Assembly: GCA_921293015.1 (NCBI GenBank) | Contig: OV121082.1 | Coordinates: 19,943,748-20,007,747 of the forward strand | Source: Phorcus lineatus | Taxonomy: Eukaryota; Mollusca; Gastropoda; Trochida; Trochidae | DNA: 64,000 nucleotides | Reading direction: 5' to 3' | Shown: piece after piece, positions 5,981-63,978 of the stretch | Numbering within the stretch: the stretch's first letter is position 1 | How the letters are laid out: each line of letters begins with the position of its first letter | The notes under the pieces: generated by a model | The model's database searches: none | What the model saw: the letters and a program-made list of their open reading frames with translations, nothing else | Told to the model about the DNA's origin: nothing | Position numbers and translations under genes: made by a program

Positions 5981-6376
5981 ACTGAATTCAAGGCTCTTAT
6001 TTTGAATACTGATTTCAAGGCTCTTATTTTATATAATGTTTTCAAGGCTCTTATTTTATATACTGATTTCAAGGCTCTTATTTTATATACTGATTTCAAG
6101 GCTCTTATTTTAAATACTGATTTCAAGGCTATACTGATTTCAAGGCTCTTATTTTATATACTGATTTCAAAGCTCTTATTTTATATACTGATTTCAAGGC
6201 TCTTATTTTATATACTGATTTCAAGGCTCTTACTTTATATACTGATTTCAAGGCTCTTACTTTATATACTGATTTCAAGGCTCTTACTTTATTTACTGAT
6301 TCCAAGGCTCTTATTTTATATACTGATTTCAAGGCTCTTATTTTAAATACTGCTTTCAAGGCTCTTATTTTATATA
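5981..6376. repeat. 27-bp minisatellite, about 14-15 units
   Basis: Unit ACTGATTTCAAGGCTCTTAT + TTTATAT with few substitutions; one truncated unit near 6129. The period is nine codons, so open frames run through it on both strands. These are not genes. Confidence 0.95.
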
Positions 6377-6559
6377 CAGTTAAGGAACAGGGTCACAAAG
6401 TCTCATGGGATTACAAATAATTCATAGGGAATTCTGTGTTAACTGCAATACTAAACTTCTATATATAATCACATCTTCAATTCAGCAAAACATCAAATAT
6501 CAGAAGAAAAAATCTCAAATGGTAAAACTCTCTAACATAACTAAATCGGAATCTTCAAA

Positions 6560-12540: not shown

Positions 12541-13670
12541 ATGAATTTAGCTGAAGCACTCCTAAAATCAAAAGGCATACTTGATGAAATGGGCCTTTTA
12601 GGCACAGGCCCTCGGATCATTAAAAAAATATATATAAAAAAAATTTTAATTTTTTTTTGAGAACACCCCCTGAATAAAATTGTTCCTCTGTTAATAGTAT
12701 ATGGAAAGGCCGGACACTCCATTCGCCCCCACCCGCTTTCTTGACCGAATGCTACAATAAATACACACGCAATCAAAATAAAATCTATGCAGACATGATG
12801 TCAAATGATTTGCCTTTCTACTCCAACTCACTTAAACAAATATATCTTTGGGGTTATTTAATGAGGACGGCCGAAAGACGATTTCCACGCCCAACTTAAT
12901 GCTGATGGGACAAATGGCCGCCCGTCACCTTGACCTTACGGGGTGTGTGTCCGCAGCGACAGATCTCATTGGTTGCAAGAACGGAGAATTAGAGTTATCT
13001 GTTCCTAACTTTGCATCAAACCAATGAGATCTGTCGCTGCGGCCACACACCCCGTAAGGTCAAGGTGACGGGCGGCCATTTGTCCCATCAGCATTAAGTT
13101 GGGCGTGGAAATCGTCTTTCGGCCGTCCTCATTAAATAACCCCAAAGATATATTTGTTTAAGTGAGTTGGAGTAGAAAGGCAAATCATTTGACATCATGT
13201 CTGCATAGATTTTATTTTGATTGCGTGTGTATTTATTGTAGCATTCGGTCAAGAAAGCGGGTGGGGGCGAATGGAGTGTCCGGCCTTTCCATATACTATT
13301 AACAGAGGAACAATTTTATTCAGGGGGTGTTCTCAAAAAAAAAATTTAAAATTTTTTTATATATATTTTTTTAATGATCCGAGGGCCTGTGCTTTTAGGT
13401 TCTAAGATTAAATGCGCAACATTTATGCGTAGCAATATTAGAGGTGTGAATGTAGATAGGCCAATGAGTTGTAGAATGTGTCAACATACTGTGACTAAAA
13501 CTGTTATTCATTTTCTCTTTGATTGTGATGGCTACAAAGTAATAAAGGATAAATTTACTTTTGTGAATGGTCAGTTATATCAAGTAGCTCAATATAATAA
13601 AATGTTAACTAGTAATTGTAGATATGCCCTTCCTAAATTGTTCTATCAACTTTTAAGAATTTTGTTTTAA
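12541..13670 (+). pseudogene. LINE (non-LTR retrotransposon) ORF2 C-terminal remnant, split by the foldback element
   Basis: Left part 12541-12602 encodes NLAEALLKSKGILDEMGLLG. Right part 13400-13670 carries CRMC...TVIHFLFDC, the C-x2-C...H-x4-C finger found after the reverse transcriptase of many LINEs. With the foldback element and one target copy ignored, the frame is continuous across the junction. Confidence 0.65.
12603..13391. mobile_element. 789-bp foldback transposon with 8-bp target duplication (hAT-like)
   Basis: Nearly perfect inverted arms of about 372 bp (12603-12974 and 13019-13391) flank a 44-base spacer. Ends are CACAGGCCCTCGG and its complement. CTTTTAGG is duplicated at 12595-12602 and 13392-13399. 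Eight-base duplication and CA...TG ends fit hAT; P or Merlin remain possible. It has no coding capacity; the ORFs of both arms are mirror images. Confidence 0.9.
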
Positions 13671-35500: not shown

Positions 35501-35971
35501 AGGGTTCTGAAAAATATCATTTCTTTCCAGGCAGGGCCGTCTGGTTCACAGTTCGGTATCCTTGCATGTCTGATGACGGAGGTCCTCCAAAGCTGGCCGA
35601 TGTATCGCAGTCCAGTCAAGGCGGTCCTAAAACTGACCGTTCCTATCATCATCCTCTTCCTGCTCGGGCTTCTACCATGGTTTGACAACTGGGCGCACAT
35701 ATTCGGATTTCTGTGGGGATTCTTTATTGCGTTTGCGTTACTTCCATACATTTCATTCGGGAAGCTGGACCGGCGGCGAAAAATCATTAGTATTGTAGTG
35801 TCCCTTTTTGTTTGTGTTGGCATCTTTGTGCTCATGATAATTTTCTTTTATGTGACACCACTGACGAACTGCCCCGGATGTGAGTATGTTAATTGTATCC
35901 CATTCACGGCAGACTTTTGTAAAAATATGGGAGTTAAAATTAAGAGGAATTCCACTTATAGCAAGATTTGA
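17415..35971 (+). CDS. RHBDF: Inactive rhomboid pseudoprotease (iRhom, RHBDF1/2 family), 14 coding exons
   Basis: Coding exons: 17415-17539, 23922-24228, 26052-26159, 27862-27998, 29022-29261, 29804-29915, 30745-30819, 31169-31330, 31988-32076, 32731-32797, 33024-33206, 33562-33662, 35041-35194, 35531-35971. Every junction is GT-AG and phases add to 2301 nt, i.e. 766 residues plus stop (human RHBDF1 is about 855). Order: cytosolic tail with ADFFGV and IIDPL blocks (2-305), first membrane segment (about 311-335), cysteine-rich luminal iRhom domain (about 340-560), rhomboid core (about 560-745). Known for the family: these ER/Golgi proteins lack protease activity and control trafficking of ADAM17 or the fate of EGF-like ligands. 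The core has GPSG (Ser624) and His676 but no oxyanion Asn in TM2. The ATG is fixed by an in-frame TGA at 17400. Introns carry a piggyBac, SINE and several MITEs. Confidence 0.95.
19215..19530. repeat. Tandem array, about 80 bp unit, inside piggyBac A
   Basis: GGGCACCGCCATCAGG-like unit starts at 19231, 19309, 19390 and 19472 (spacing 78-82). Each is followed by TTGTCCAACGAAAATGTT. It lies upstream of the transposase remnant. Confidence 0.8.
20245..21274 (+). pseudogene. piggyBac transposase, internally deleted and frameshifted
   Basis: Three segments in three frames. 20245-20690: acidic N-tail with a Ser-Asp run and an [12 protein letters not shown] stretch. 20688-20960: [20 protein letters not shown] with [20 protein letters not shown], the end of the catalytic domain with the GGVDxxD aspartates. 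About 20963-21274: Cys-rich C-terminal finger (CVVC...CIEC...[10 protein letters not shown]). The central part with the first catalytic aspartates is missing at about 20688, and a frame change lies near 20960. An intact piggyBac transposase is about 550-600 residues; this remnant cannot be active. Confidence 0.9.
23922..24228 (+). CDS. RHBDF: iRhom coding exon 2 (conserved N-tail)
   Basis: Residues about 42-144. It contains [22 protein letters not shown] and [13 protein letters not shown], which align in order with TADWFGV, YGKLK, IIDPL and PRRRKRESVAKM of vertebrate iRhoms. The acceptor is CTTAAG|G and the donor is GCT|GTATGT. This cytosolic block is the most conserved part of the tail. Confidence 0.93.
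24586..25410. repeat. 145-bp tandem array, six units
   Basis: Four units have exactly 145-base spacing and one has an internal loss of about 20 bases. ATGACCCCAAATGGGGTCA in each unit could form a small hairpin. Confidence 0.9.
25675..25700. repeat. (AT)n microsatellite
   Basis: About 13 AT dinucleotides within the 3' part of the 24461-25775 element. Confidence 0.95.
26052..26159 (+). CDS. RHBDF: iRhom coding exon 3
   Basis: Encodes residues 145-180 including [13 protein letters not shown], matching RRSFTPASFLEED of vertebrate iRhoms. The acceptor is CTGTCCAG. Two in-frame donors lie 9 bases apart (CAG|GTAAAC at 26160 and ACG|GTAAAT at 26169); the first is taken here. Use of the second would add three residues (VNT). 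Confidence 0.9.
26280..26822 (-). mobile_element. 543-bp Mutator-like MITE, copy 1, in iRhom intron 3
   Basis: Inverted ends CAATCTAGTTAAAAC. The flanking nine bases (AGTTTGTTT, TATTTGTTG) match at six positions, an old duplication. The interior matches 63133-63690 in reverse orientation. Confidence 0.8.
27310..27690 (+). mobile_element. Second SINE family with (ATT)n tail, in iRhom intron 3
   Basis: GTGCGTAGCTCAGTTGACCG resembles a tRNA A box. The 3' end GTTTAGCGCTATATAAATGG followed by (ATT)n is typical of metazoan SINEs that use an L2-like LINE tail. Confidence 0.65.
27862..27998 (+). CDS. RHBDF: iRhom coding exon 4 (acidic tail segment)
   Basis: The acceptor is TTATTTTTCAG and the donor is GG|GTAATT. 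Encodes about 45 acidic residues ([17 protein letters not shown]...). It corresponds in position to the ELDTSFF...DEVFES acidic stretch of vertebrate iRhoms. Similarity is weak, but the phase fits both neighbours. Confidence 0.85.
28575..28915 (-). repeat. Dispersed repeat tail in iRhom intron 4
   Basis: GATCAATCTTTATTCAATAC and GGCCATAGGCCTGTAGTGC match 5440-5505. The A+T-rich body to about 28915 may belong to the same LINE 3' end. Confidence 0.4.
29022..29261 (+). CDS. RHBDF: iRhom coding exon 5 (juxtamembrane)
   Basis: The acceptor is CTCTTCCCAG and the donor is CACAG|GTCAAT. Encodes a proline-rich start and the juxtamembrane block [14 protein letters not shown]...IDEMDDHR, which matches YGLGMVGRLTNRTY...IEDMDDHR in vertebrate iRhom. 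A 175-bp MITE lies 107 bases past the donor. Confidence 0.93.
29369..29543 (+). mobile_element. 175-bp MITE, copy 2, in iRhom intron 5
   Basis: CAGGGATTGGGAAAG ... CTTTCCCAATTCCTG, flanked by CATTAT at 29363-29368 and 29544-29549. Same length as copy 1. CAGGG ends suggest hAT, but both copies show six rather than eight duplicated bases. Confidence 0.85.
29804..29915 (+). CDS. RHBDF: iRhom coding exon 6 (TM1)
   Basis: Encodes [19 protein letters not shown] followed by [18 protein letters not shown], the first transmembrane helix and entry to the lumen (vertebrate PFFTYWLTFVHSLVTIL...YGIAPVGF). The acceptor is CACTTGCAG and the donor is ACA|GTAAGT. Confidence 0.95.
30160..30272. mobile_element. 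113-bp hairpin MITE, in iRhom intron 6
   Basis: Arms of about 48 bases (CTGGGACTATATATCCGAAG... and complement) around a short A+T loop. A half copy (AAGTGCTAAGATAGTCATAAG, 47286-47310) lies just left of piggyBac B. Confidence 0.75.
30275..30705 (+). repeat. Dispersed repeat R1, copy 1, in iRhom intron 6
   Basis: About 430 bases from TATTTAATGTTATGTTACA to GCACTATTGCCTTTAAA, over 90% similar by eye to 59775-59798 plus 62244-62690. It ends 40 bases before iRhom exon 7. Class unknown. Confidence 0.85.
30745..30819 (+). CDS. RHBDF: iRhom coding exon 7
   Basis: A 25-codon exon ([25 protein letters not shown]; split here for length). Vertebrate counterpart: VYENVKYVQQENFWIGPSS. The acceptor is TTTGTTGCAG and the donor is CAG|GTGAGT, both in phase 0. 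Confidence 0.9.
31169..31330 (+). CDS. RHBDF: iRhom coding exon 8 (luminal iRhom domain)
   Basis: Encodes [15 protein letters not shown] and [15 protein letters not shown], nearly identical to vertebrate ALIHLGAKFSPCMR and [15 protein letters not shown]. It carries several conserved cysteines of the luminal domain. The donor is AGT|GTGAGT. Confidence 0.95.
31988..32076 (+). CDS. RHBDF: iRhom coding exon 9 (luminal)
   Basis: The acceptor is CTGTTCACAG and the donor is GA|GTGAGT. Encodes KVLSTFLKW...[10 protein letters not shown], matching STLAVWVKW...FGSVCHQDPR of human RHBDF1. Confidence 0.9.
32731..32797 (+). CDS. RHBDF: iRhom coding exon 10 (luminal)
   Basis: The acceptor is CTCTTTGAAG and the donor is CCG|GTAAGA. 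Encodes [20 protein letters not shown] and ends in WP, aligned with [21 protein letters not shown]. Confidence 0.9.
33024..33206 (+). CDS. RHBDF: iRhom coding exon 11 (luminal)
   Basis: The acceptor is TTTCTGATCCAG and the donor is CAG|GTAAAC. Encodes ICTK...[18 protein letters not shown] and [20 protein letters not shown]. The cysteine spacing matches the vertebrate ITGRPCCIGTKGRCEIT...YFHEEATLCSQ segment. Confidence 0.95.
33562..33662 (+). CDS. RHBDF: iRhom coding exon 12 (start of rhomboid core)
   Basis: Encodes [20 protein letters not shown] followed by [14 protein letters not shown], the luminal loop leading into TM2 (vertebrate DQFYRLWLSLFLHAG). The acceptor is CACCTATCAG and the donor is GG|GTAAGT. 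Confidence 0.95.
34420..34541. mobile_element. 122-bp hairpin MITE, in iRhom intron 12
   Basis: CAGGGCCTCCTTTCACAAAGC (first 20 bases shown as CAGGGCCTCCTTTCACAAAG) faces GCTTTGTGAAAGCAGGCCCTG, with TTAAGGTTAACCTTAG inside. This is a common invertebrate hairpin element type. Confidence 0.75.
35041..35194 (+). CDS. RHBDF: iRhom coding exon 13 (TM2-TM3)
   Basis: The acceptor is ATGTTTCTAG and the donor is GAG|GTGAGT. Encodes [20 protein letters not shown] and [20 protein letters not shown]. The TM2 position that holds an oxyanion-hole Asn in active rhomboids is not Asn here, as in vertebrate iRhoms. Confidence 0.95.
35531..35971 (+). CDS. RHBDF: iRhom terminal coding exon 14 (TM4-TM7)
   Basis: The acceptor is TTTCTTTCCAG and the stop is TGA at 35969-35971. 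Encodes [14 protein letters not shown] (Ser624 at the catalytic-serine position, after Pro623), then [14 protein letters not shown] (His676), [13 protein letters not shown] and [14 protein letters not shown]. Vertebrate iRhoms have GPAGSQFG here. Confidence 0.95.
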   Translation, partial: AGPSGSQFGILACLMTEVLQSWPMYRSPVKAVLKLTVPIIILFLLGLLPWFDNWAHIFGFLWGFFIAFALLPYISFGKLDRRRKIISIVVSLFVCVGIFVLMIIFFYVTPLTNCPGCEYVNCIPFTADFCKNMGVKIKRNSTYSKI

Positions 35972-43469: not shown

Positions 43470-43770
43470 ATGTCATATCATGTCAGGTGTTACATATTAC
43501 AGTATTCAGGTCAAACAACATGTCATATTACATACCATGGTACATCATTTAGCATGTTAGATCGTACAACATGGTATATTATATACCATGGTACATCATA
43601 TAGCATGTCAGGTCATACAACATGGCATAATATATACCATGGTACATCATATAGCATGTCAGGTCATACAACATGGCATATTATATACCATGGTACATCA
43701 CACAGCATGTTAGGTCATACAACATGGCATATTATATACAATGGTACATCATAAATTGTAAGGTCATACA
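43470..43770. repeat. 51-bp tandem repeat, about six units
   Basis: Unit CATGGCATATTATATACCAT GGTACATCATATAGCATGTC AGGTCATACAA. The period is 17 codons, giving a repetitive open frame. A looser CATGTCATA-rich stretch continues to about 44130. Confidence 0.9.
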
Positions 43771-45624
43771 ACACATGTCATAACATGGGGTGTTTTGCCA
43801 TATAACATATCATACAATATACCATGTTATATCATATCACATGTAAGATTACAATATATGTCATATTATGTACAATGTTTCATTCTTTATCAGTTAATTG
43901 TATATCAAGTCAGTTACACCATCTCTAAACTGAAACATGAAACATAAAATATTATGTCATATCATGTCAAGTTGGATGTCAAACGTCACATCAAATACCA
44001 TAACATAGTTCATTTTAAGTACCATGTCATATATCACATCAATTACCATGTTAGATGTCTTCACAATTCCATGTCATATGTAAAACACATCATATGTAAT
44101 GTCATAAAATTGCACATAATGTGACACATAATCTCAAGTGATGTCATAATTTATTGAGTAACATGTATATTGAAAATATGCATATCATATCTCACAAAAA
44201 ATTGAATAAAACAAAATATAAAGAAAATGTAAGCCTTATGCTTAAATCTAAACAAATATCACCTATATGGACCTAAAAGCAAGATAAACACAAAAAATTA
44301 TTCATTTACTTAATTTGAAAGAAATGCTACATTCATTAGTAGTTAAAATTAAAACAGACTATGCTGATACAGTGCCTTCTTCTTCTTGTATTTTAAAACT
44401 CAATAGCAAGGACACATAGAAAGCAATTACCTTATAAACCTTCTCTATACCCTGGATTCAAACATGAACTTTGCTGCAACTTATACAATTTTTAAAATTC
44501 ACTTGGCCAGACTATACATGTAGATCCAGGCAGCCATACAGATTGTTTTTTAAAATCAAGCTTGGACGAGAGTCCTTGCCACAATTTTATATGATGATCT
44601 GCCAAAGTTGGTATGTACTAATGTATGTATGTTTATACTATTTAATGATAAACTAATTAAAATTAACCTTAATGAATTTTCATCAAACTCCTGGAGTATT
44701 CTAATAATTTAAAAAAATGAGTTTTTTTAGGACAGTAAAGATTATCTTTTCTTATCTTATGTCAGTCATTTTGTTTGGTAAGCTCAACTTCCTTGCTTAG
44801 TCACCTGATCAACTTAAACACAATTCAAGGTAGGTTATCAAATGTACAGCAAAAACACTGAATGAATCCAGGGTAAGAGTGGAGGTTTCTCAGAACATTT
44901 ATCCCTGGATGTTGATGATGATCAAAATTTTTTTACCTCTATTTACATGAGTAAAAAATAGTAAACAGCAGAGTATGTGGTCATTTAACTAATATTCAGG
45001 TAAATTTTATGCAGATATTTTATAGTTACATGGTCATTTTTTTAATACCATTGAAAACACAAAAATATCAGTGTTTTGGCATTTTAGAGATACAAATGTA
45101 AGTTTAGATAGGCGATTGGATCATAATTCATGAAATATGGTATTCCGACTCTCATTTAACCCACATGTAATTGATGTAACACACTCTGGGTCCCTAAACA
45201 ATTTCCTGTCTCCAATGATGAATATTTTTCATATATACATCAAGTAACTCCATGTCTGTACAGAAATTAGGGCCATCGCTACAACATCTGGTCACTAATA
45301 GTTCTCGCTAGTTGTAACGGTGTAAGGTATAAACTAGCGTAAAAGAAGAAATCACAGATAAATCGAGGAATGAATGGCCACATCAGGGAACAAACAAACG
45401 CTGTTGCCACTTGTTTCATGTATTTTTTTATCTTCTCAAGAGGAGATCTGCAATGAAAGTAAAGTCAATGAGCAACATTTATCTTTTCTAGCTTAAGTTT
45501 TGAAAAGTGACATACAAAGAAAAGGATTTTCAATTTTATCCTGTCTTGACTTTCACTTTGATATAACAAGTAAGGTCTTTTTGTGAAAGAGATATTGTCT
45601 GAAACAAAATACTTTACAGCAGGT

Positions 45625-45895
45625 CAATGCACATCTTCCCCTGCAAGGCCTTAACTTCACTAGTCTCTATCATTGACTAATTTAAACCTTGCTGCCAAAC
45701 AAGTTTTGAGTGCAGCGCCCTCTTCGGTGAAAAGTTGCTTGCTATGTATATAATGATTTCTTATCGGACTTTCGCAATACTTCACAGCATCCTTGGCAAC
45801 AAGCACAGAAAAGTAAGGGGAATGCGGTACGGCCTATCTTAGCAAGTCTGAATAGGCCATTCGTGGGAAGATTGTCAATGCAAGTCTTACCCTGG
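45625..45895 (+). repeat. Dispersed repeat R2, copy 2
   Basis: See 42980-43265. Also contains GCGCCCTCTTCGGTGAAAAG. Class unknown, no target duplication recognised. Confidence 0.7.
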
Positions 45896-45959
45896 CTTAA
45901 AAAATGCTATCATTTGAAGGTAAAGAAAGTGGTAATGTTACAAGGATCTAAATTTTTAA

Positions 45960-46245
45960 TACTTACCCCACTTCTTATATTGCATATTACCTATACTTCC
46001 GATAAAACGATTGGAAATTAGTTCTGAACAAACACATCCAATAGCGATAGCGATTTATATGGAATGTGATTTTGTCAACGTGGTCACGTGACGGAGTGGA
46101 TCGTCACCTTCCGGTTACAAGGCCGTGTTGTCGTTGTCATATTCCCCAACTTGCAGAACGAAGACGGGATGACTACTACCAACACATTTTCCAATCGTTT
46201 TATCCGAAGTATAGGTAAAATGCAATACACGAAGTGGGGTAAGTA
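45960..46245. mobile_element. 286-bp MITE next to BFAR exon 6
   Basis: Inverted ends of about 57 bp (TACTTACCCCACTTC... and complement) with TTTTTAA duplicated at 45953-45959 and 46246-46252. The centre carries GGTCACGTGACGG and CTTCCGG. Confidence 0.85.
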
Positions 46246-46481
46246 TTTTTAAATATCTAAAATATTTAGATTTTAATAATTTTACAATATTGATCAAACT
46301 AATCAGATGAGCCAAGCAGATTTTTGTCTTTCAAGTTACAGTTAATCAATATGAACCAGCCTGTCAATTTGGGGAGGGCTGGTTAGTTATTCAAAACACA
46401 AATCCGTTTTTCGAGAAAAGACTGAAAAGGGAGTCTTTTACAATCACACCAGGCGGCCATTTTGCAAACTGTTCCACATAC

Positions 46482-46681
46482 CTCCACTCTGCCTGGAGAA
46501 AGAACCTCTTGATAGTGGACGCCTCCATGATGGACAGTAAAGCACAGCTGACAAGTATGAAGAGAGATGTCCAAAATTGTCGCGAAAAAACTGACCATGT
46601 GAATTTGGCAATAAGCCAATAGGGCAGCAGCACCGCATTGGTCAGAAAAGTCACCCACTGTTGACCAGTTGGGGAAGGGAT
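46482..46681 (-). CDS. BFAR: BFAR exon 6 (membrane region)
   Basis: The acceptor is CTTCACAG and the preferred donor is GGAG|GTATGT at 46481. Encodes QQWVTFLTNAVLLPYWLIAK, FTWSVFSRQFWTSLFILVS and ALLSIMEASTIKRFF, aligned with human REFLVKYSFLPYQLIAEFAWDW. If unspliced, the frame runs on to a stop at 46391, but that tail has no BFAR similarity. Confidence 0.88.
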
Positions 46682-49600
46682 CTGTGAAGAGAAGAATTTC
46701 AAATTGTTTGAATTGTCTTCCACTTGCATTCTCTCCCAACAGAGGTAGCTCTGTCATAAATTCCTATACAACCTCTGTCATAATACAAGGGTATCTTGGG
46801 CTTCAGGCAGTTTCCCCTAGCGGGACAATATTGCAACTTAAACTACCTGGCAATATTTCAGCCAATGAAAACACCAAATGTATGAAAAACGTATTTGATG
46901 TCACATAGGCCTATGCTATGATGCAGTCGCAATATGAGGCGTATGTGTTCAGTAAAGACAACTCAAAGTGCATATTCGAATAAAGTTTTGCTTTTTTAAA
47001 GCTTCCGGAAATAACTTAGGCGATTTGAATTTTAACTTTTGAAACGGCGTCACTGACTGCACAATTAACTTTGTTTGCATCCAAACTAGCGTTCTACATT
47101 TTGTGCCCGAGAAACCTTTGTATTAAGACAGAGCTTGTATAGGAATTTATGATGGAGCTTGTGGGGAGAGAATGTGCCACTTGATGTTTTACTGGAGAAA
47201 TGGGGATTTGCAATTGTGCCTTAAATGATTTGACCATGCATTTATCTCTTGGTATTCATTTCCACACATCCATTTTCAAAGTTGCCTAAGTGCTAAGATA
47301 GTCATAAGTGCCACAGAATATGATTGTTTAACCCTTAAGATGCGGGTCCCGGAATATTCTGGGATGAAATTAGCTTTGCCCGCAAGTCCCCTTAGCGGGA
47401 TGCGAGTAGCACACTCTATTTTTCTCACGCTAACTAATTATGACCGCGGGTCTCAGTAGCGGAGCCCGGAAATTTATTGCCTAGCAGTAGTCTCAGTTCA
47501 ACGCTTGTATTTTCGTTCCGGCTGTCGCTAAGCAACCGTGTTTTGTTTCGTTGGCGTTCTAAATAATGCGCGAACATGCTCCGAAAATTATGCGAACATT
47601 GATAATGTTTATCGTACCGAAAATAAGCGTTAAAATCACTCAATTTTCCCCCACTCCCCGCCGCACGTGCTAATAGCCTGTGGGCACTTTCTCCCCGCTC
47701 GCACGAGCTTACTGTCCCGCGCGTGCTATCGTTTGCTTACAAGCCTGCACTCACACCAAACGTACAACCTTATATCGCACGCCCTATGCTCTGAACATTT
47801 GGGCGGATTTCAATACCGGCTGGACCATTTGAAAGAGCAGAAAATTGTCTTCAATTCAATATAAAATACATAACTACACTACCTGAATTGAAGATACAGC
47901 ATGTGCCGCAAAAAAGGTGATTTTTACATATTTTTAGTTTTACACCATTTTGTCACACCAATTTTTACATGATGTGCTCAACGTATTTTGACAATTTTTA
48001 TATCATAAGACAGAGAGAAAGATTGTCTTTCTTTCCATGTAAAATGTGTACATGCGCAAAAATAAATAAAGACACAGCAAGCGCCGCACAAAAAGCTAAT
48101 TTCTCGATTCAAATCATGTAAACTGAACGGCGATTTTGACATGTGCCTTTCTTTCGCTCATATCTTCTCAACAGCTAGGCGTATTTTGAAATTGATTACC
48201 TCGTGATAAAGAAGGAATAATTGTCTTCGATTTGATATAAAAAAATTATATACACCATATAGAATAAAGATACAGCAAGTTCCGCAAAATTGTGACTTTT
48301 GTTTATTTTTTACGTTTTTACCATTTTCTCGCACTTTATATCACATAAACTTCTCGGTAAATTTTGCAATTTCATATATCAAAATATAGAGAGATATATA
48401 GAGATATTGCAATATAAAATTGGTATGTACAAGAAAATCAGAAAGGACCCGGCGTGCATCGCACAAACAGGCAATTTCTCTATTCATATTTTGTTTACCG
48501 AGAAGCGATTTATTTTCAACTGCTTTTTACACTTCCTATCCATTTAACGGCAGAGCGCATTATCAACATTTTTATATCACAATAAAGAGGAAAGGATCGT
48601 CTTCAATTCTATATAAAATTTGCAAATTACAATTAGACAATAAAGGAGAGGTTAGTGATGTCGCAATTATCAAAATCTGTTCTAAAATACCCGAGGGTAC
48701 CATCTTTGCAAACTTTATATATTCCAAACCAAGTGGTACATATTTATTATTTTCATATCATCGTAAAGCAGAAAGAAATACCTTCATTTTCACGGTAAGT
48801 TGCCCATATTTGCATCAAAATAAAACGTGTGGAAACGATGCAACATATGTTGCGGTAAGGCGATTATCAAAGACTTTATTAGTAGCTATACCCACGGTTC
48901 GTTGGTAAAAACTTCTAATTACAGTGCAAAAGATTGTTATGATTTATTTCTTCGTAAAGAAGAATAAATTGCCTTCAATTCCATATATAATTTGCATGTA
49001 TACAAAGCGAATAACATGATTTATAAAGTTGGAAATAAAGACAATTTATATTGTGTGTGAGTGTATGTTTCAACGGGGATACCCCGCCTGCACGCGCTGA
49101 GCGCGTGCGTTTGCCCGGAGCTATTAGCTTAGTAATATTACTGTGGGGGTCAGAACGTTATCGGGATGTATTACTACCCTGTTTTCGTAATTTATATCTT
49201 TCGTTTAGGATGGCGTATCGTAATAAAATTTATCGTGAAATATAGAGCATAAAATTAGCTTCAATTGCGTATATAATTTGCATGTGTGCACTCAGTGATT
49301 AAATGATTTTATAATGTTTGAAATAAAGACAATTTTTAAAATTTTGTAAAATTCGTTCTAGACATATTATAAAAATAATTTTTATATCGATGTGAAGAGG
49401 AACTATTCATCTTTAGTTTCGTTTTGATTTCGCGCATGCGCTCTTGAAATTTATTGAGTTATGGCGCCCGAATTGAAAACAAGTTTACTTCAGTTGTAGA
49501 AACCGTTCCAGGGGTGATAGAAATTTCATTCAAAGTGTCAAGCAAGAATCATCCATTTGTAACACGGGATTCGCCGACTAGCGTTGTATAAAACGACGAT

Positions 49601-52600
49601 AATGTCCGTATTTCGCTATGTAAACACGCCATATGTTGTTAAAACGGTCGCATCTGGCGGCGCTGGAAAATTCGGCCACAGGGGCTAATTGCGTTGTTAC
49701 TGTAGCGAGGCGAGTGCTGGAAAATTCAGCCACGGGGGCAAAACTTGTCAAAATAATATTCAGCAACAGAAGGGTTAACATTGACTTTCAACTTTACCAC
49801 TAAGAGATTTTGGAATTTATGTCCTGTTATCTTCTTTCAGCAAAACGATCTGTGATGAAAATTATAGAGTGTGTCTTTCATAAACAAGTGAAATATTTGC
49901 AGTCAGAATAATACAATAATGTTAGACTCACCTGAGACCAGTTGAAAGGCACATCCTCAGTCTGTGCAGGTGTGGTGAAGTGCAGGAACGGAAGGAACAC
50001 ATCCTCGTAGTAGAAGATGAACAGATAGAGGAGCACACCCCGTGGAGCATCCTTCAGACCAAACAGGAGGAACATACAGCGACCTGGGTACATCACCTGT
50101 GAATGATAGAATGGAAAGGTGAGGTGATATTGGGTTAAACACCGCTTTTATGAGTATTTCACTTATATCACGGCCGCTCGTTATTGCAGGGAACAAGCTG
50201 CAACACCATTGTGGCAATGCATTGCGGTGAAATCTGCGAGCATTGACTTGAAATAGCGAACCATGGGTGTTACTGCACTGAAATTCAGAGTAGCATTGCT
50301 CCTAAACCTGACTGCATGTAGTTCAATACTGCAGACAAAGTTGCCGAGCGGGATTTCGAACCACAGACCTCTTGATCTGAAACCCAACAGTTATCACTGC
50401 GCTATCCGGCCCCCGTTAGATTAGAGAGATAAATATTTTCTGAGACAAACAAGTATTTTAATTTTGGGGTTTTCTCATCTCAGGTGAGTTGTCTCATACC
50501 TTTCTACATAACCTCTGTAGCAAGTGGGCAATACTTCTGTATACTTTCTTATCTAAATGAGAAAATATTTGCAACATAAATACAGTACTTCTTTTCAGCC
50601 AATGAAACACTGTCCTACATCAACTCATGATATTGGTTATCTTAACAAATCTAAAGACGTCTCATAGGTGAAAAGATTTTACTTTTGTAAAGGTTACAGG
50701 AAGATACTGAATGTTTGATTATGTTGACCATAATCGAGAAGAGATATTTTCATTAAAAATTTCCAATAGCTACTTAAACCAAATCTTTATTCATTGATTT
50801 GGTGACTTAATGTTTCTCATAAGGTCTTTTGTAGACTGACACTGATTAGATGCATTAGATAGACACAAAGGATAACAAGGTTCGAGCAGTTCTGGATATG
50901 GTTTGCCTTTTCAATACACTGACCTTGTATTCCCAGAGAGTAGTGGGTAACTTGACCCCCTTCTCGAGGATACGATTTATAGCAAGTAGGAGCGCCCTCT
51001 TGTGGAGAGGGTTGGTCACATTGAGAGCTCCCTCTATACTGTCCTCGTCTAGAGACAGCATCATCGGACCATCTGTGAATACAAACAAGGTGCCTTCATT
51101 TTCAGGATTTTGACAGATCTTGACTAACTCTTTTTTATCACAGAGTGTTTGATAGACTTTAATCATAGATGAAAATCATGTCACTTTGTGTAAGTTTTAT
51201 GTATACATGTAGGTGAGGTGAATAGGGGCTTAACGCCGCTTTCAAGAGTATTTCACTTATAACACAGCTGCTAGTATTATTGCAAGGAGAAAGCCTGCAT
51301 CACATTTGAGGTGAATTGAGGTGTTCTCTACTGCAGACAAATTCAATCCCCAGACCTTTTGATCCAAAGCTTAACGCGTCAACCACTGCGCTTTCCAAAC
51401 CCCTGTATTTCTGAATGTTTTTCTGATGTGAAATAGTGAAATAGGTATATACAGAAATGTGGTTTAGAAGGCAAAGAGACAGTTCTATTGAATTATTTTT
51501 GTTGGGAAAGATATACTTCTAAGATATAGGATGAGTGAATCACACAGAAGGCAATATATGAAATATTTTGTATTTTGTATTTTGCCCTACATCACAAGAG
51601 ATCATATTGAAAGCGAATAGCCTCTACTGACCGATACCATTCTGCTGGACACTGTGGACATACTGCTCGGCCCAGCCCATGTGTGTGAGCCAGGTGACCA
51701 CGTCCTCTGTCTTCCACTGGACAGCAGGCTTGTGGATCAACAAGTCCTGGTCAACATCTGTCCAGTACCACACCAGGTTGAACACGATCTGTAATATAGG
51801 TTCAATCTAGATTAAATGAGATTTATAAAAATTACTTTTAATCAACATAAAGCCAATGGATATATTGATATGTATATCATTAGGATCAGTTTTTTAAATT
51901 CATTTTTATCCTTACTTGCAAAAATATGTTTTGAAATATCAATAAGCTATCCTAAAATTGAAAGGGCCTTACAATAAAAGTGCACTTAGTATGTCAAAAA
52001 CGCACAAATCAGATGGGCTTGCTGGCCTTTTACCAAAAGCCCTATCAGAAATTAACCAGCAATTGACTGGCTAACTTGCTCATCAGCGTAGTTATATCCA
52101 CAAAGCTCCTACAATACCCTGATATCTATCAAGACAAGTGCCATGTATTGCTGACAGCTTGTTAGTCATGGATTTGTTTAGCAAGAATTTTTTTTATCCA
52201 ATGAAATGTCATTATTCAACGGGTACTGTCGACTTTCTAGATGAAAGTCATTTCATTGGCTGATTATACAACACAATGAGCTCTGCAGTTACAAATACCC
52301 TGATGTAGTAGGATGGTAGAGGCCTGAGTTTGTCAAAGCTGTGACCATTACTACATTTACAAACAATTTTGGATTTTAAGGTACCAACCCAGCTGCCTCC
52401 TTGATTATTATTGTATATATCTTTCAGGTATATAAATCATGCAATGACGGGCCAAGAATGTTGGGTAAAAAAAATGGTGTTCACAAATAGATGTCATATT
52501 AAAAAAAAGCTAATTATTTACACTTGCAAGAGTATTAATGACATTTGAAAGTTTTAAATTGATAATTCTGTCCTCTTTAAGTGAGCCTTTGAAGAAATAA

Positions 52601-55038
52601 AGATTACCAGAAATAATCCGATTCCTAGACCAAAGCCCATCCAGAGAGAGCTCTTGTCCACCCTCCGACGTCCTTGTTCATTATCCGACCTCTGTGCCAA
52701 CATCAGCTCGTCAAATTTTTGTATCGTTTCTATGGAGTCCGCGTCCCTTACTCGCTCTTCTCGTTCATAGATCTTAGTACCAAACATCTTGTGCATCATG
52801 TCCCTACAAAATGAAAGAATTATATGATGAAAAAGGTCTAAAACATAACTGGCTTTGAGGGTGTACTATTTTGTGGTTACATGATCAACAAAAATGCCCT
52901 GTATTTTCAGAAAGTTCTTCATGATTTAATTCAACTGAAATGGTTAACATGTTTCAGCTGATTGCACAACTGACTTTGAAACTAACTAGATGCCTGTATT
53001 TCTAGCCCTGAAAAAACTCTACTTGAAACAGAGGTGACATGGGAAGGAATACTTCAATATCATCTTTTGGGAGAATATGTGTAGTTCGAATCAGAAAAAT
53101 GTCAATGCTGTTATTCAATTCAAAGTTTCAGGATAGGGGAAAGGGCAATTCAAATGTAGAAAAAATAGTTCTTCTGAAAAAGACAGTCCTATCGGAGTAT
53201 TTTCTGTGGAAATGAAATTCAAGGGGACATTTCCATTCATTCAAGTATGTCATTAGTACATGATTATAATCTTACCCAGTTGCTTGACTTAGATTTGACA
53301 ACTACATAAATGAGATCGCACACTTGGGAAAATAAAACAAGAATGAGAAGTGAAGCCATTTATCAGCATACCAGCTTGAAAAGCCTTGCTACAGGATACA
53401 AGGCATTGTTGATTGAATAATTTGTAAATGTGTGAATATTCTATTCATACATAGTTTTATTTCATAAAGTTAAAAAATTAGTGAAAGTAGAAGTAGCCGA
53501 TAAGTTAGCCACTTTAAGTAGAAAACAGTATTTTCTCACATAGGTATTTTCATCTTCATTCAAATCAGTTTCAGGGATGATTTCTCTGCCTACCCAGGGA
53601 TCGTATAGACAGGGATATGAAACTAGGGCTAATTAGCAATCTATGTCGTCTCGCTTTACGGTTCAATGCACATATGACTGGGTTCGGGCACAATGCATAC
53701 TCATTAGCGCACAGTTCCAGCGGAACCGTTTTACGAAGATTCCCAGCTCTATCCGGTAATCTCCGTAAAAAACAACAGAGTAGCCTCCCTTGTAGTATTG
53801 TTGTCACAACAGTGAGACGGAAGCGTCGATTGCTCGACAAGATGTTTTTCTTTTAGAAAAGGTGAATAGATTTTAAAGAACTCAAAGCTTATAAGCTACT
53901 TTGAGTATGAAATAAAATTGGTGTGTAGATATATCCAAGATGATCAAGCTATGACGTGTATCTTTAGACATATAAAATATTGACTTAAGAGCGATAACCA
54001 CACTTACAGAAAAAAATATTCAATTACCAAATAGTGCAAATACGATCAGACAAACATCCATCTGTCGGAAAAGTACATTTTTGGAAACTACCTCCCAAAA
54101 TACAACGATATTTTAAAGTATTACTTGAGGCAATGCTCAAGCGTGTTGCTGTCAGTGCAGACAAAATGGCCGACAGTCTAGTCATCCTATGTGAAAAGAA
54201 AGACCGGTAACCACACTTACAGAAAAAATATTCAATTACCAAATAGTGCAAATGCAATCAGACAAACATCCATCTGTCGGAAAAGTACATTTTTGGAAAC
54301 TACCTCCCAATGTACGATATTTTATAGTTTTACTTGAGGCAATGCTCAATCTCGTTGCTATCAATGCACACACAATGGCTGATGTGCTCTCTATTTTGAT
54401 AGAAAAGTACGAGGGGTACACATGCGGAATGTTTTTGATCAAAATAACTATTTACAACTTTTCCAAAAGGATATTATTCATCTATTGATATAAATTTCTT
54501 TTTGTAAAGTTATCCCATTCGTAAAATAGCTAATTGAATTCTTGTGTCAGGTACGAGAACAGAAGTGATACGAAGACCCACAAAGCATTGTTGTTTTCAT
54601 TGCGCAACTGGTTACACAACACCGCGCATTGACGTTTTTGCAAAAAAAGAAACCCAGTCTCCATGTGCAGTGGAGCGTGACCTGCCTGGGCCAGCTAATG
54701 AGCGAGAGTAATTTAGTACAATCAGCTAATAGTTTCATATCCCTGTCTATACGATCCCTGGCCTACCTAAGCGTGATGTTCACTTTCGGATGTCCTTGCC
54801 AGATTTGCCGGCATGTCGAACAGACCTTCTTCTTGTTTGTGAGATACCATTTAGCCAGACACAAGCGACAGAAGCTATGACCACATTCCAGTGTTGTGGG
54901 TTCAACCATCGGTTCTTGGCAGATTCCGCAAGCAAAATCAGACTCGCTGGAGTCTTCTCCCACCAGCGATCTATTCCTAACAGTGGAATCATCTGTACTG
55001 GAGTCGGGTGGTGGATGAATGTCGTGATCGTCTTCCAT
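46482..55038 (-). CDS. BFAR: Bifunctional apoptosis regulator BFAR (RING-SAM-TM), six of probably seven exons
   Basis: Exons on the minus strand: 55038-54767, 52803-52608, 51788-51638, 51072-50924, 50096-49932, 46681-46482; phases join for 377 codons plus two bases. Domains: RING with C37, C40, C52, H54, C57, C60, C73, C76; FPKVNILLRD-like HPKVNITLRD; TM about 145-165; SAM about 175-245; LWEYK; FLPFLHF; LLPYWLIAKFTWSVF, all in the order of human BFAR (450 residues). Known role: an ER-membrane E3 ubiquitin ligase and scaffold that restrains cell death. The ATG at 55038 is preceded by an in-frame TAA. The last exon (about 70 residues) was not found between 36 and 46.4 kb. Introns hold a hAT-like element at the exon 1 donor, two SINEs and a piggyBac copy. 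Confidence 0.9.
47332..49774 (+). mobile_element. piggyBac non-autonomous element, copy B (2443 bp), in BFAR intron 5
   Basis: TTAA at 47328-47331 and 49775-49778. Ends are CCCTTAAGATGCGGG and CAACAGAAGGG. It has no transposase. The body is a chain of degenerate units of about 188 bp. It contains a perfect G+C hairpin (GCACGCGC TGA GCGCGTGC) at 49090-49108. It is antisense to BFAR. Confidence 0.92.
49932..50096 (-). CDS. BFAR: BFAR exon 5 (membrane region)
   Basis: The acceptor is CATTCACAG and the donor is CAG|GTGAGT. Encodes MYPGRCMFLLFGLKDAPRG, LLYLFIFYYEDVFLPFLHF, aligned with NPGRSLFLLYALKSSPR, LLYLYLFDYTDTFLPFIH of human BFAR. Confidence 0.93.
50119..50414 (-). mobile_element. tRNA-derived SINE, in BFAR intron 4
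   Basis: GGTTAAACACCGC tail, body with GAACCATGGGTG and head GATTTCGAACCACAG ... CACTGCGCTATCCGGC. Sense orientation relative to BFAR. Confidence 0.85.
50924..51072 (-). CDS. BFAR: BFAR exon 4 (second half of SAM)
   Basis: The acceptor is GTATTCACAG and the donor is AAG|GTCAGT. Encodes DGPMMLSLDEDSIEGAL...NPLHKRALLLAINRILEKGV and ends at LWEYK, as in human NLWEYK. Confidence 0.92.
51212..51402 (-). mobile_element. tRNA-derived SINE, internally shortened, in BFAR intron 3
   Basis: GCTTAACGCCGCTTTCAAG tail and a decayed head ending CAACCACTGCGCTTTCC. About 100 bases of the body are missing. Confidence 0.78.
51638..51788 (-). CDS. BFAR: BFAR exon 3 (end of TM1, first half of SAM)
   Basis: The acceptor is ATATTACAG and the donor is AATG|GTATCG. 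Encodes IVFNLVWYW...DLLIHKPAVQWKTEDVVTWL, matching human DLLVHKAVAKWTAEEVVLWL in the SAM domain. Confidence 0.93.
52608..52803 (-). CDS. BFAR: BFAR exon 2 (linker and start of TM1)
   Basis: The acceptor is ATTTTGTAG|G and the donor is CTG|GTAATC. Encodes RDMMHKMFGTKIYERE...DKSSLWMGFGLGIGLFL. The hydrophobic end corresponds to the FFSGVLTALTGVAVVLL segment of human BFAR. Confidence 0.88.
53595..54760. mobile_element. 1166-bp DNA transposon (CAGGG ends) at the BFAR exon 1 donor
   Basis: 31-bp perfect inverted ends starting CAGGGATCGTATAGAC. GCCTACC is duplicated at 53588-53594 and 54761-54767. On the BFAR strand the duplication is GGTAGGC, which contains the exon 1 splice donor. The interior has a 211-bp tandem duplication and no transposase. 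Confidence 0.88.
53998..54415. repeat. Tandem duplication of about 211 bp inside the BFAR intron 1 transposon
   Basis: Two head-to-tail units starting CCACACTTACAGAAAA at 53999 and 54210, each running through CATCCATCTGTCGG and GGAAACTACCTCCCA to CAATGGC/AAATGGCC. The units differ at scattered positions. Confidence 0.85.
54767..55038 (-). CDS. BFAR: BFAR exon 1 (RING finger)
   Basis: Acidic start (MEDDHDIHPPPDSSTDDS...) then C-x2-C-x11-C-x-H-x2-C-x2-C-x12-C-x2-C, a complete C3HC4 RING. It ends in KVNITL plus AG of a split Arg codon; the donor is TTAG|GTAGGC. A transposon inserted directly at this donor (53595-54760). Confidence 0.93.
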
Positions 55039-57600: not shown

Positions 57601-60600
57601 GTGGGTACAATACCTCTTCAAATACATCAAATAATATATGGTTTACCTTATGTCATCGACAAATTTTAGCTTATTTCAATAGTTAATAGTCTAAATATAA
57701 CCTTTTGAATAAGCATGTCTTATATTCAAGGTAAGGTTTCTTAAAATGTATAGGTTAACGCGGTCTCCAGTTTGCCGCCTAGACTGATTTTTTGAAAAGA
57801 TGTTTATCATTATCATATGCGTATGACATATATGAAATATTGTTAAGAATGCATTTAATCGTATCAATCATTTGGGACTTTGGCCATAGACCTTCGTTTT
57901 CTGTACACAGTCGTTTTATGTCTTTTTGTCTGTTTAATTGGCTTGTGGTGATCTCGTAGACAAAACAATTTCGTAGGCAGTAATAAATTTCTATTTCTAT
58001 GTCAATATTGACTATCATTTTTTATTGTTATTGTCGTTTATAGTAATTCATATCATGTTGCATGAATATTGATCACGGCGGACAAATATATTTGTTGCGA
58101 CTATTCCACAACTATGTTGTAATCATCATGTTTTTTAGATAACAAGTCAAAATTATTTAAATGGCAATATGTATAATTATTAAAAACCATCCATAACTTG
58201 ATAGTGACATTTTATGTCATATTTCCAAATGTTTCAAAAATATATCATAAAAATGAAAAGTATTTTGAATAGTCTGAGGTATGATGACTGCTTCCTGTGT
58301 GTACGCCAACATACTTGATTCAACTTGAGCCTGTTACTGACCCAGCGTATGCCGGTTCCATCTCCCGGGTATACGATATATATATATAAACAAATCAAGC
58401 ATGTAGCCAATGTCACCATAAAAAAATTTATGTTCATAATATTGTAAATGCAGAAATACAGTTTTCTTAGATTTACTGATTTTACTGTACTTGAATACAA
58501 TGTTGTCGTTTTCAAGTTGAATAGAATAGGAATCTTAATTATTATTGACAAATAGGCCTACCATAATTTGGTGAATATTAATTATTTGTATTAACAGAGT
58601 TTTCTCCCTTAATTTATTGTCACAATTTTGTGTAAACATTTAGTTATGTAATGACAAAAATAGATCAGCTTTTTTGATGTTTATGATACCTTCTCATTTT
58701 TGCATTTTTCACTTTTCAATTGCGATCATTCTTAACTAATTTTTTCTTATTAATGATACATTATTTAGAGTTAAGATCAAATGGTTTTTAAAAGAGTATC
58801 TACAATAACTTTAACTCCTTTGGTGTAAGTGAAAGTCTCTGTCAGAAAATGTCTTGACTAGTGGTGTACAATTCATCGATAGTATCGATGTTTGCATCGT
58901 CTACTATGCGATACGAGTGCATCGATACAAAACATGTTTTGACAATATATCAGGATATTTATATCGTGAGGGTCCACAATACATCGATGAATCGCCATAA
59001 GAGAAAATATATCCCGATACTGTTAACATAATTTGTTTAAAACAAAAAACTATAAGAGCTAAAAAGGTTTTTCTTCTATTTCAGAGATAACAGTGATTAG
59101 AATAGAAACAGAAAGAGAAATTATATATTTCTATTTTATATGCAATTTCACAGTCACTCTAATTTTGTGATTTCCCTTCATGTAATATCTATGAAAATTT
59201 GGTATCTAAGAAATAAAATTACTGTTCTATGTCCTATCTATAGTTCTTTCTAAACTGTAAAGAATCGTGATACATATTGTATCGCAACCGTTGTATCGTG
59301 ATGATAATCGTCTCGTAGGTTACCTGCCAATAATTCCATGATAAATCTTCTCCCTTTTCGGATATATTGTCTCGCCACTAAGGCCAGGATACTCAGGTCT
59401 AGTCTTGACATTAGGAGACTTTCTACATTCACACATTCATGACACGCTTGAAACATGTCACCCTAGAGTATTTAGTTTATGGTTTTGTTATGTTTTTAAA
59501 TAAGATTTTGACATGAATTTAGAAAATATTTATGGACAAACAATTGATGAAACAGATATTTGGGTGAAGATTTTTTAATTCATCACAAATCATGAAATGT
59601 GTTAAACACTAATTCTTTTAAAATTGATTAAACGCACTAGTGCACGCCAATATTTCGTAAACACAACGAATGCACAGATACAGTATATCTCTCGATATTA
59701 CTCACTATCCTCACTCAAGTAATCTACCTCGTAAGTTATTTAACAAATATTTACGTATTCAGGTAGTAAAGTGGATATTTAATGTTATGTTACATTAACC
59801 CTTAAGATGCGGGTCCCGGGCCTGTCCGGGTTGAAATTTGCTTTGACCGTATGTCCTCTGGGCGAGATGCGACATCGAAACTCTATTTTTCTCACGCTAG
59901 CTCATTAACGCCGAGGTTCACAGTAGCGAAAGACGGGCAAATGTTGTACGGCAGTAGTGTCAGTTTAATGCTAGCACTTTCCGTCCGTCTGTCGCTAAGC
60001 TACCGAATTTTGTTTCGTTGGTGTTCTAAATAATGTGCGTACATGTTCCGAAAATTATGCAAACATTGATACCGTTTATCGTACCGAAAATAAGCGTTAA
60101 AATCACTCAATTTTCCCCCACTCCCCGCCGCACGTGCTAATAGCCTGTGGGCACTTTCCCCCGCTCGCACGAGCTTACCGTCCCGCGCGTGCTATCGTTT
60201 GCTTACAAGCCTGCACTCACACCAAACGAACAACCTTATATCGCACGCCCTATGCTCTGAACCCTTGGGCGGATTTCAATACCGGTTGGATCATTTGAAA
60301 GAGCAGAAAATTGTCTTCAATTCAAAATAAAATACGTAACTACGCTACCTGAATTGAAGATACAGCATGTGCCGCAAAAAAAGGTGATTTATACATATTT
60401 TTAGTTTTACACCATTTTGTCACACCAATTTTTACATGATGTGCTCAACGTATTTTGACAATTTTTATATCATAAGACAGAGAGAAAGATTGTCTTTCTT
60501 TCCATGTAAAATGTGTACATGCGCGATAATAAATAAAGACACAGCAAGCGCCGCACAAAAAGCTAATTTCTCGATTCAAATCATGTAAACTGAACGGCGA

Positions 60601-62868
60601 TTTTGACATGTGCCTTTCTTTCGCTCATATCTTCTCAACAGCTAGGCGTATTTTGAAATTGATTACATCGTGATAAAGAAGGAATAATTGTCTTCGATTT
60701 GATATAAAAAAATTATATACACCATATAGAATAAAGATACAGCAAGTTCCGCAAAATTGTGACTTTTGTTTATTCTTTACGTTTTTACCATTTTCTCGCA
60801 CTTTATATCACATAAACTTCTCGGTAAATTTTGCAATTTCATATATCAAAATATAGAGAAAAGGATAATCTTTATTGCCATGTAAAATTGGTATGTACAA
60901 GAAAATCAGAAAGGACCCGGCGCGCATCGCACAAACAGGCAATTTCTCTATTCATATTTTGTTTACCGAGAAGCGATTTATTTTCAACTGCTTTTTACAC
61001 TTCCTATCCATTTAACGGCAGAGCGCATTATCGACATTTTTATATCACAATAAAGAGGAAAGGATCGTCTTCAATTCTATATAAAATTTGCAAATTACAA
61101 TTAGACAATAAAGGAGCGGTTAGTGATGTCGCAATTATCAAAATCTGTTCTAAAATACCCGAGGGTACCATCTTTGCAAACTTTATATATTTCAAACCAA
61201 GTGGTACATATTTATTATTTTCATATCATCGTAAAGCAGAAAGAAATAACTTCATTTTCATGTGTAATTTGCCCATATTTGCATCAAAATAAAACGTGTG
61301 GAAACGATGCGACATATGTTGCGGTCAGGCGATTATCAAAGACTTCATTACTAGCTATACCCACGTTTCGTTGGTAATAACTTCTAATTACAGTGCAAAA
61401 GATTGTTATGATTTATTTCTTCGTAAAGAAGAATAAATTGCCTTCAATTCCATATATAATTTGCATGTATACAAAGCGAATAACATGATTTATAAAGTTG
61501 GAAATAAAGACAATTTATATTGTGTGTGAGTGTATGTTTCAACGGGGATACCCCGCCTGCACACGCTGAGCGCGTGCGTTTGCCCAGGGCTATTAGCTTA
61601 GTAATATTACTGTGGGGGTCAGAACGTTATCGGGATTTATCACTACCCTGTTTTCGTAATTTATATCTTTCGTTTAGGATGGCGTATCGTAATAAAATTT
61701 ATCGTGAAATATAGAGCAAAAAATTAGCTTCAATTCCGTATATAATTTGCATGTGTGCACTCAGTGATTAAATGATTTTATAATGTTTGAAATGAAGACA
61801 ATTTTTAAAATTTTGTAAAATTCGTTCTAAACATATTATAAAAATAATTTTTATATCGATGTGAAGAGGAACTATTCATCTTTAGTTTCGTTTTGATTTC
61901 GCGCATGCGCTCTTGGAATTTATTGAGTTACGGCGCCCGAATTGAAAACAAGTTTACTTCAGTTGTAGAAACCGTTCCAGGGGTGATAGAAATTTCATTC
62001 AAAGTGTCAAGTAAGTATCATCCATTTGTAACACGGGATTCGCCGACTAGCTTTGTATAAAACGACGATAATGTCCGTAATTCGCCATGTAAACACGCCA
62101 TATGTTGTTAAAACGGTCGCATCTGGCGGCGCTGGAAAATTCGACCACAGGGGCTAATTGCGCTATAACGGTAGCGAGGCGAGTGCTGGAAAATTCAGCC
62201 ACGGGGGCAAAACTGGTCAAAATGATATTCAGCAACGTAAGAGTTAAATACGCATGAACTACGATATCGGAAATATTAAGATTTTGCTCATAACCAGAAA
62301 ACCGGAAACGGCAGCCGCTATGGTCAATGTAATAACAATGCTAATACTGTGTTATTAAATTGGTTAATTTACAACATTGCTTTCATAAGAAATATTTCAT
62401 GATTTGTTCTCAGTCCAGAGTTTAGGTAAATTCAATAGCTGCACACAGTACTAGTTTAGCCATTTCCAAGTGTCAGTAATTTATCTGTTTTGTGCACAGT
62501 TAACCATAGATTTTTATATGTCCAAGCCGACAGCGGCTGTCTTAACGTATTCATTGTTGATTGCAGGTAATTTGTAAAGAATGTTTAGTATTTCATTGCA
62601 TCGATTGAAAGTTTAAGTGAATGCATTAGTCCTCGTAAACCTTAAAATAGCCAATTTAAACCGTAAAAGCGTGCACTAGTGCCTTTAAAATTAGATTTGT
62701 CATTGTTTAGATGTTTCATGTTCATATTTTCACATTTTAAGGAATGTCTTGGTGAAATACAATATGCGATGTTTATTTTTACATTTTCAGATTTCAAGGA
62801 TTGTCTAGGTGAAATAGAAGATGCAATCAACTCAGCAGATTTTATTGCAATTGATGGGGAATTCACAG
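57582..62868 (+). CDS. PARN: Poly(A)-specific ribonuclease PARN, first two coding exons (gene continues past the window)
   Basis: Exon 1 codes 19 bases (57582-57600; M-E-V-T-R-S plus A), the donor is CAA|GTGGGT. Exon 2 is 62791-62868 between TTTTCAG and ACAG|GTAAAT. Joined they read MEVTRSNFKDCL...ADFIAIDGEFTG, aligned without gaps to human MEIIRSNFKSNL...ADFFAIDGEFSG. D28 and E30 are the first two acidic residues of the DEDD exonuclease site, at the same numbers as in human PARN. Known role: 3' deadenylase acting on mRNA and several small RNAs. Intron 1 (about 5.2 kb) holds a piggyBac copy nested in an older repeat. The remaining exons lie beyond the right edge. Confidence 0.88.
58860..59310. 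repeat. Possible hAT-like remnant with ATCGATA-rich ends
   Basis: CATCGATAGTATCGATG motifs at 58876-58930 face ATATTGTATCGCAACCG near 59275-59300, a pattern like that of 55527-55955. No target duplication was found. Confidence 0.35.
59775..62690 (+). repeat. Dispersed repeat R1, copy 2, split by piggyBac C
   Basis: Left stub TATTTAATGTTATGTTACATTAA (59777-59798; 20 or fewer shared bases before the break) and right part from 62244. The two halves are continuous in copy 1. The right part has one extra block of about 35 bases near 62282 not present in copy 1. Confidence 0.85.
59799..62243 (+). mobile_element. piggyBac non-autonomous element, copy C (2445 bp), in PARN intron 1
   Basis: TTAA at 59795-59798 and 62244-62247. 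It is close to base-for-base the same as copy B over its whole length except the first 100 or so bases, so B and C are recent relatives. It inserted into an older dispersed repeat whose halves lie on both sides. Confidence 0.92.
62712..62826 (+). repeat. Tandem duplication across the PARN exon 2 acceptor
   Basis: CATATTTTCACATTTTAAGG AATGTCTTGGTGAAATACAA (62720-62763) repeats as TTATTTTTACATTTTCAG|AT TTCAAGGATTGTCTAGGTGA. The upstream copy has lost the CAG acceptor and carries changes; the downstream one is the true acceptor. Confidence 0.75.
62791..62868 (+). CDS. PARN: PARN coding exon 2 (catalytic D28, E30)
   Basis: Encodes NFKDCLGEIEDAINSADFIA then IDGEFTG, holding the IDGEF motif of DEDD-type nucleases. 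The acceptor region has a decayed tandem copy immediately upstream (62712-62768). Confidence 0.92.
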
Positions 62869-63077: not shown

Positions 63078-63978
63078 CCGTATTCGACGTGATAAGCGCC
63101 CGGGGCGCTTAAAAAATTGGTAAAAGGGGGCGCAATCTAGTTAAAACTAGCTGTAATACAATACGTCCCGAAGTCCGTTATTACATCTTGCGAATTACAG
63201 GTCTATTCCGTGTCGAGCAGGCGCGAACATTAGCCAATCAAATGAGTGCTGGCCCAGCTCTTCGAATCGCGGGTCGATGCGATTGTTTCGCCGTTCTTAA
63301 GCACCTCGATTACAAAATCCGAATGTTATCAATGTTTCGCAGTAAATTGTGTTGAAAAATATGATGACAGCATAAATTCTGTGCTGATAATGTTTACGGA
63401 ATATTTTTGGGTTGTTGATTTGGTAATTTGTGCAAAAGGAAATCAACACATTTGGTCAAACAATGACAAAGTAAGTTTTAAGGATAAATATAGACAAACG
63501 TAGGGTAAACGTCAGGATGTCACATTAACCAAGATGCAAAAGAAACCCGCCTTTGATTGTTTGAAAGCTGTCTTCCTGCCCTCATTTTATTGGTCGGTTC
63601 AAAATAAGTCAAAGGTCAGCTGAACATGACCTCAATCAGTAATTCTCTAGATGTATTGACGGATCAATACATCTAATTTTAACTAGATTGAAGGGGGCGC
63701 TAATTAAAACGATAAAAATTGTGTTTTCTTACGATACACATGTCTTTGAAATATGGTTTTATGACTTATATCATTATTATGGTGGCTCGGGTCTTGAAAT
63801 ACCCCGTATTCTTCACTTTAGTGTAAGTAAAAGACGTATTGCAAGACTGAAAAACCTTCCAGCATGCAAGGTAAGCAATGTTGAGAGGTGGGCGCTAAAT
63901 CAGGACGTATATTGTTCAGTCAAAAACGTGGTGGGTGGGCGCTTATAGGGGAGTGGGCGCTTATTAAGTCGAATACGG
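63078..63978 (+). mobile_element. TA-flanked MITE, copy 2, in PARN intron 2 (interrupted)
   Basis: TA at 63076-63077 and 63979-63980. Ends are CCGTATTCGACGTGATAAGC and its near complement. Without the nested element it is about 334 bp. It resembles 39988-40340 reversed. TA target points to Tc1/mariner-type mobilisation. Confidence 0.82.
63133..63690 (+). mobile_element. 558-bp Mutator-like MITE, copy 2, nested
   Basis: Inverted ends CAATCTAGTTAAAAC with a perfect nine-base duplication AAGGGGGCG at 63124-63132 and 63691-63699. Nine bases suggest Mutator or Merlin. It interrupts the TA-flanked MITE at 63078-63978. Confidence 0.85.

Follow-up and report, generated by a model that had tools for sequence, protein, structure and literature searches.

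A putative hAT- or P-like transposon at the exon 1 donor of a BFAR-like gene in Phorcus lineatus, probably harmless because its target duplication rebuilt the splice site

Introners are transposons with inverted ends whose target duplication can supply a splice site, as described in the sections of the report cited here (PMC9860276). The locus described below resembles introners in that a splice site lies in a target duplication. Introners, however, form a new intron (PMC9860276, sections cited), whereas here a presumably pre-existing 790-nt intron that has an acceptor of its own appears to have been enlarged; 784 nt of intron 1 and its acceptor lie past the second copy of the duplication, and this intron is probably older than the insertion. 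Stwintrons (PMC12403724) are also similar, in that foreign sequence occupies the donor of an intron that was already there. In the cited part of that report, an internal intron interrupts the donor without any target duplication being seen; in our case the donor is duplicated, not split. Among the matches listed in a search of non-subscription literature (titles and the opening lines of abstracts), none describes a target duplication that restored a splice donor, and we claim no priority.

The host gene occupies 9760 bp of the minus strand of the 64-kb window, by which we mean the whole stretch of DNA analysed. Its seven coding exons join into an open frame of 1308 nt (435 amino acids and a stop), with GT-AG borders in all six introns. 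Exon 1 (54767..55038, 272 nt) runs from the ATG to ...CTTAG and ends in phase 2, and exon 2 (52608..52803), with the acceptor TTTTGTAG^GGACATGATG (the caret marks the splice junction), joins it in phase to give ITLR^DMM. The chain continues in the region 45279..51788 with exon 3 (51788-51632), exon 4 (51072-50924), exon 5 (50096-49932), exon 6 (46681-46482) and exon 7 (45447-45279). Pfam places a RING finger at residues 37-76 of the product and a SAM domain at residues 180-242. In a comparison with solved structures (60 of 66 matches listed), the best listed match overall was to TRIM25 RING chains, and the best listed over the SAM region was 1v85 (E 2.5e-8). Hydrophobic stretches were judged by eye. 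The combination of RING, SAM and hydrophobic stretches is what we take to be the BFAR architecture, and human BFAR presumably reads LLRDAIEKLF at the position of the exon 1/exon 2 junction. On its domain architecture, the gene is best called BFAR-like.

The boundary of exon 1 at 54767 appears well supported by the exon chain and domains, because the native donor ranks first among the GTs that keep phase and because the seven exons form one open frame. We examined 94 GTs of the gene strand between exon 1 and 53400, and four of them retain the open frame and enter exon 2 in phase 2. Scored with an approximate splice-donor matrix, the native donor TAG^GTAGGC (54767/54766) reaches 2.92 and the other three -0.47, -4.00 and -5.43; within 54900-53400, no GT exceeds a score of 3 on this matrix. 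The native donor is of moderate strength only.

Intron 5 holds the first copy (47328-49778) of a 2.45-kb repeat whose second copy, 94.8% identical, is at 59795-62247. The ends TTAACCC...GGGTTAA suggest a piggyBac-like TTAA element, and the one frame searched in it (48402-48905) had no Pfam match. On the plus strand, two frames with Rhomboid domain matches at 34916-35968 are probably exons of a neighbouring gene of the rhomboid family.

The element at the exon 1 donor covers 53595..54760 (1166 bp, 38% GC). Its left terminal inverted repeat (53595..53625, plus strand), with the first letters CAGGG, and its right one (54730..54760, minus strand) are identical as reverse complements over all 31 bp, or 32 if one flanking C/G pair is included, and start CAGGGATCGTATAG. 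Inside it are two direct repeats on the plus strand, at 53987..54173 (187 bp) and 54200..54382 (183 bp), with 89% identity. A duplication of 7 bp, GCCTACC on the plus strand and GGTAGGC on the gene strand, flanks the element without mismatch at 53588..53594 and 54761..54767. When flank lengths of 4 to 11 were compared, only 7 gave a full match, and base composition puts the chance of a random 7-mer flank match at about 1.2e-4. The 20-base end of the element, with up to three mismatches allowed, occurred in none of 100 shuffles of the window.

We scanned the window for inverted pairs with exact 11-mer seeds spaced 60-7000 bases apart. Among the 352 pairs examined, six rows, representing four distinct places including the element, were flanked by an exact duplication 6 bp or longer; one of the other three (24690-24826) sits in a tandem array. 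There was no second copy of the element in the 64-kb window, where the best other match extended over 32 nt at 84% (E 0.005). The 20-base end had no exact match in collections of viral and prokaryote contigs, as expected because this is animal sequence. We rejected a protein-coding core, given a longest stop-free frame of 97 amino acids and 14 frames without a Pfam match at cut-off. Two of these frames extend a few bases into the flanks, and three hits well short of the cut-off (E 0.029-0.096) were put down to chance. With its inverted repeats and target duplication, the element is best read as a non-autonomous cut-and-paste DNA transposon. Identical ends and an identical duplication fit a fairly young insertion, although they are no proof of one.

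Other elements and repeats occur in the window. A 789-bp element (12603-13391) has perfect inverted ends of 40 bp (CACAGGCCCTCGG...) and an exact 8-bp duplication, CTTTTAGG. One of 558 bp (63133-63690) has inverted ends of 14 bp and an exact 9-bp duplication, AAGGGGGCG, with a relative, 82% alike, at 26278-26822. A broken transposase of the piggyBac type is found at 20655-21271, with the end of DDE_Tnp_1_7 and, just under cut-off, zf-Tnp_2 in separate frames. Tandem arrays with units of 27, 51 and 145 bases occur at 5981-6377, 43506-43773 and 24579-25399, respectively.

The usual target duplication of hAT elements is 8 bp. That of our element is 7 bp, the 8-mers TGCCTACC and GCCTACCT being different, and we dropped hAT as a firm family on account of this length. 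Duplications of 7 or 8 bp characterize the P superfamily, with which the 7 bp found here agrees. In the parts of the reports cited, the duplication of BuT4, a hAT element, is 8 bp long (PMC2775673), and several short derivatives of Buster1 and Buster2, also hAT, have ends that start with CAGGG (PMC4298943). The CAGGG end is thus common to our element and to Buster-like non-autonomous hAT elements, but the rest of the end (ATCGTATAGACAGGG) differs from the Buster ends shown in that source (PMC4298943). In the P superfamily, the cited passages give duplications of 7 bp for Galileo, with three 8-bp cases in one species, and of 8 bp for the P element (PMC4168063). Galileo resembles the element here in its 7-bp duplication, its inverted ends and its many copies without transposase (PMC2775673, PMC4168063, in the parts cited). 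It differs in its reported duplication consensus, GTAGTAC or GTATTAC against GGTAGGC, and in its inverted repeats, which are mostly 575-610 bp in the copies listed (PMC2775673) compared with 31 bp. The THAP transposase of the P superfamily had no counterpart at the Pfam cut-off in the 14 frames of our element. The duplication would therefore favour P and the CAGGG end hAT; we leave the superfamily as hAT- or P-like because no transposase was found in the element.

The position of the element relative to the splice site is exact. The last base of exon 1 is 54767, its donor GT occupies 54766-54765, and the element begins at intron position +7. The duplication thus corresponds to donor positions -1 to +6: its exon-side copy (54761..54767, minus strand) consists of the last base of exon 1 and the donor GTAGGC, and its second copy (53588..53594, minus strand) adjoins the original intron, with a second GT at 53593-53592, 1173 bases downstream. 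Compared with the empty site that we infer, positions -3 to +6 are the same and the first changed base is +7 (A to C), while intron 1 would have grown from 790 to 1963 nt. The first-pass annotation had described a transposon flanked by this duplication, with one donor copy against exon 1 a few bases from the element and the other at the far end beside the original intron, and had concluded that the insertion preserved the donor. The coordinates above bear out the description in each respect, and the conclusion is well supported by the sequence.

We consider it about 85% probable that a hAT- or P-like transposon entered at the exon 1 donor and was harmless because its duplication rebuilt the site. 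A non-autonomous cut-and-paste transposon would have been inserted through a staggered cut across the 5' splice site that follows the first coding exon. Repair of the seven staggered bases would have left the last base of the exon and the first six of the intron on both sides of it. The exon-side copy would still read TAG^GTAGGC, with element sequence from +7 onward, so that the region of the donor that pairs with U1 would be intact and the element would be spliced away together with the enlarged intron 1 from the first donor. The insertion would be nearly neutral, since the duplication rebuilt the donor, and would persist for that reason. A 7-bp duplication that holds the GT and leaves -3 to +6 unchanged has only two placements per donor. 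For the six donors of this 9760-bp gene, that makes 12 positions, or by simple arithmetic about 0.1% per random insertion. Such insertions should be rare singly, yet some would be expected across a genome rich in elements and introns; surviving cases are to be expected because insertions slightly more exon-ward would harm the donor and tend to be lost. Our case appears to be one such survivor, tidy in its anatomy but of an ordinary kind.

In a 1241-nt predicted structure the two inverted repeats pair as a stem beside both donors. Such a stem could influence splicing, and we count it against the harmless insertion, together with the moderate strength of the native donor and the absence of other copies from the window. 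With the element present, the predicted mean unpaired value of the native donor is 0.20-0.33 (sequence reaching 60-600 nt beyond the exon, and a 1380-nt form); with the element removed, it is 0.22-0.27 (60-300 nt beyond the exon). Donor openness is thus not clearly different in the filled and empty forms, and folding does not separate the readings.

A different outcome would follow if some transcripts used the second donor copy, which would exonize the whole element and allow the insertion to tune the output of the gene; we regard this as unlikely. The second GT, in the context TGG^GTAGGC, retains -1 to +6, with G in place of A at -2, and the fold predicted for the 1380-nt form leaves it a little less paired than the native donor (0.37 against 0.25 mean unpaired). 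The approximate matrix gives it 0.71, compared with 2.92 for the native donor. The corresponding values for all six donors of the gene are 2.92, 0.90, 0.83, 4.50, 8.53 and 4.90, so the second copy falls below all of them and near two; because those two reach only 0.83 and 0.90, a low score alone does not exclude the second site. On this scale it is also exceeded by six GTs within the element, at 0.90-1.33, and by a flanking GT at 53539 (1.73). The native donor is, moreover, transcribed before it, and use of the second site would lengthen the coding part of the exon to 1445 nt. Read-through past the first donor gives CTT AGG TAG, with an in-frame stop at 54765-54763 after 91 codons, and the transcripts would therefore be degraded or yield a short RING-only protein. 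The first-pass annotation had called the second copy a spare donor. Its letters, GGTAGGC, are there as claimed; as a functional spare it is compromised by its weak context, by its low score and by the stop in the first copy. Most likely, the second donor copy is a passive by-product of the insertion.

The heptamer GGTAGGC contains both GT and AG, and the element might leave as a GT-AG unit of its own, in the manner of an introner, if the first copy served as its donor and the second (CCCTGGGTAG^GC) supplied the acceptor. A further splicing event, from a GC donor (TTAG^GCAGAG), would then take out what remains of intron 1, and a single transposition would have turned a plain intron into a nested one. 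We find this two-step removal very improbable. The acceptor at the second copy has a pyrimidine share of 0.62, within the 0.50-0.81 of the six acceptors of the gene, but with Gs beside the AG it is weak.

We give equally little credence to a transposon that targets donor-like sequence, for example a Dada element directed to genes for U1 or other small RNAs that struck a look-alike site. The element does sit exactly on a donor, and Dada duplications are 6-7 bp according to the sections cited (PMC3706591). In those sections, however, Dada-U6 and Dada-U1 are described without terminal inverted repeats, where our element has 31 perfect bp, and the reported U1 target, GCGAAT/GCGAAC, is not donor-like (PMC3706591). 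These two differences led us to reject Dada of the U1-targeting kind (PMC3706591, PMC8869645, as far as the cited parts describe it). The site is the border of a coding exon, and no RNA family matched at the Rfam gathering score anywhere in the 64-kb window. Least credible of all is a chance pairing or a fault of assembly: the element is single-copy in the window, but its 31/31 inverted repeats have a 7/7 duplication exactly outside them, and shuffled windows did not reproduce its 20-base end.

If a transposon did enter as we propose, this is a single-locus case in which a target duplication renders harmless an insertion into a splice site that would otherwise be damaging. No 7-base stagger lying further towards the exon than -1 to +6 would leave the whole donor, -3 to +6, unaltered. 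The case is akin to the borrowing of splice sites by introners, here at a pre-existing intron, and a genome-wide count of duplications that span donors would gauge how often selection tolerates them.
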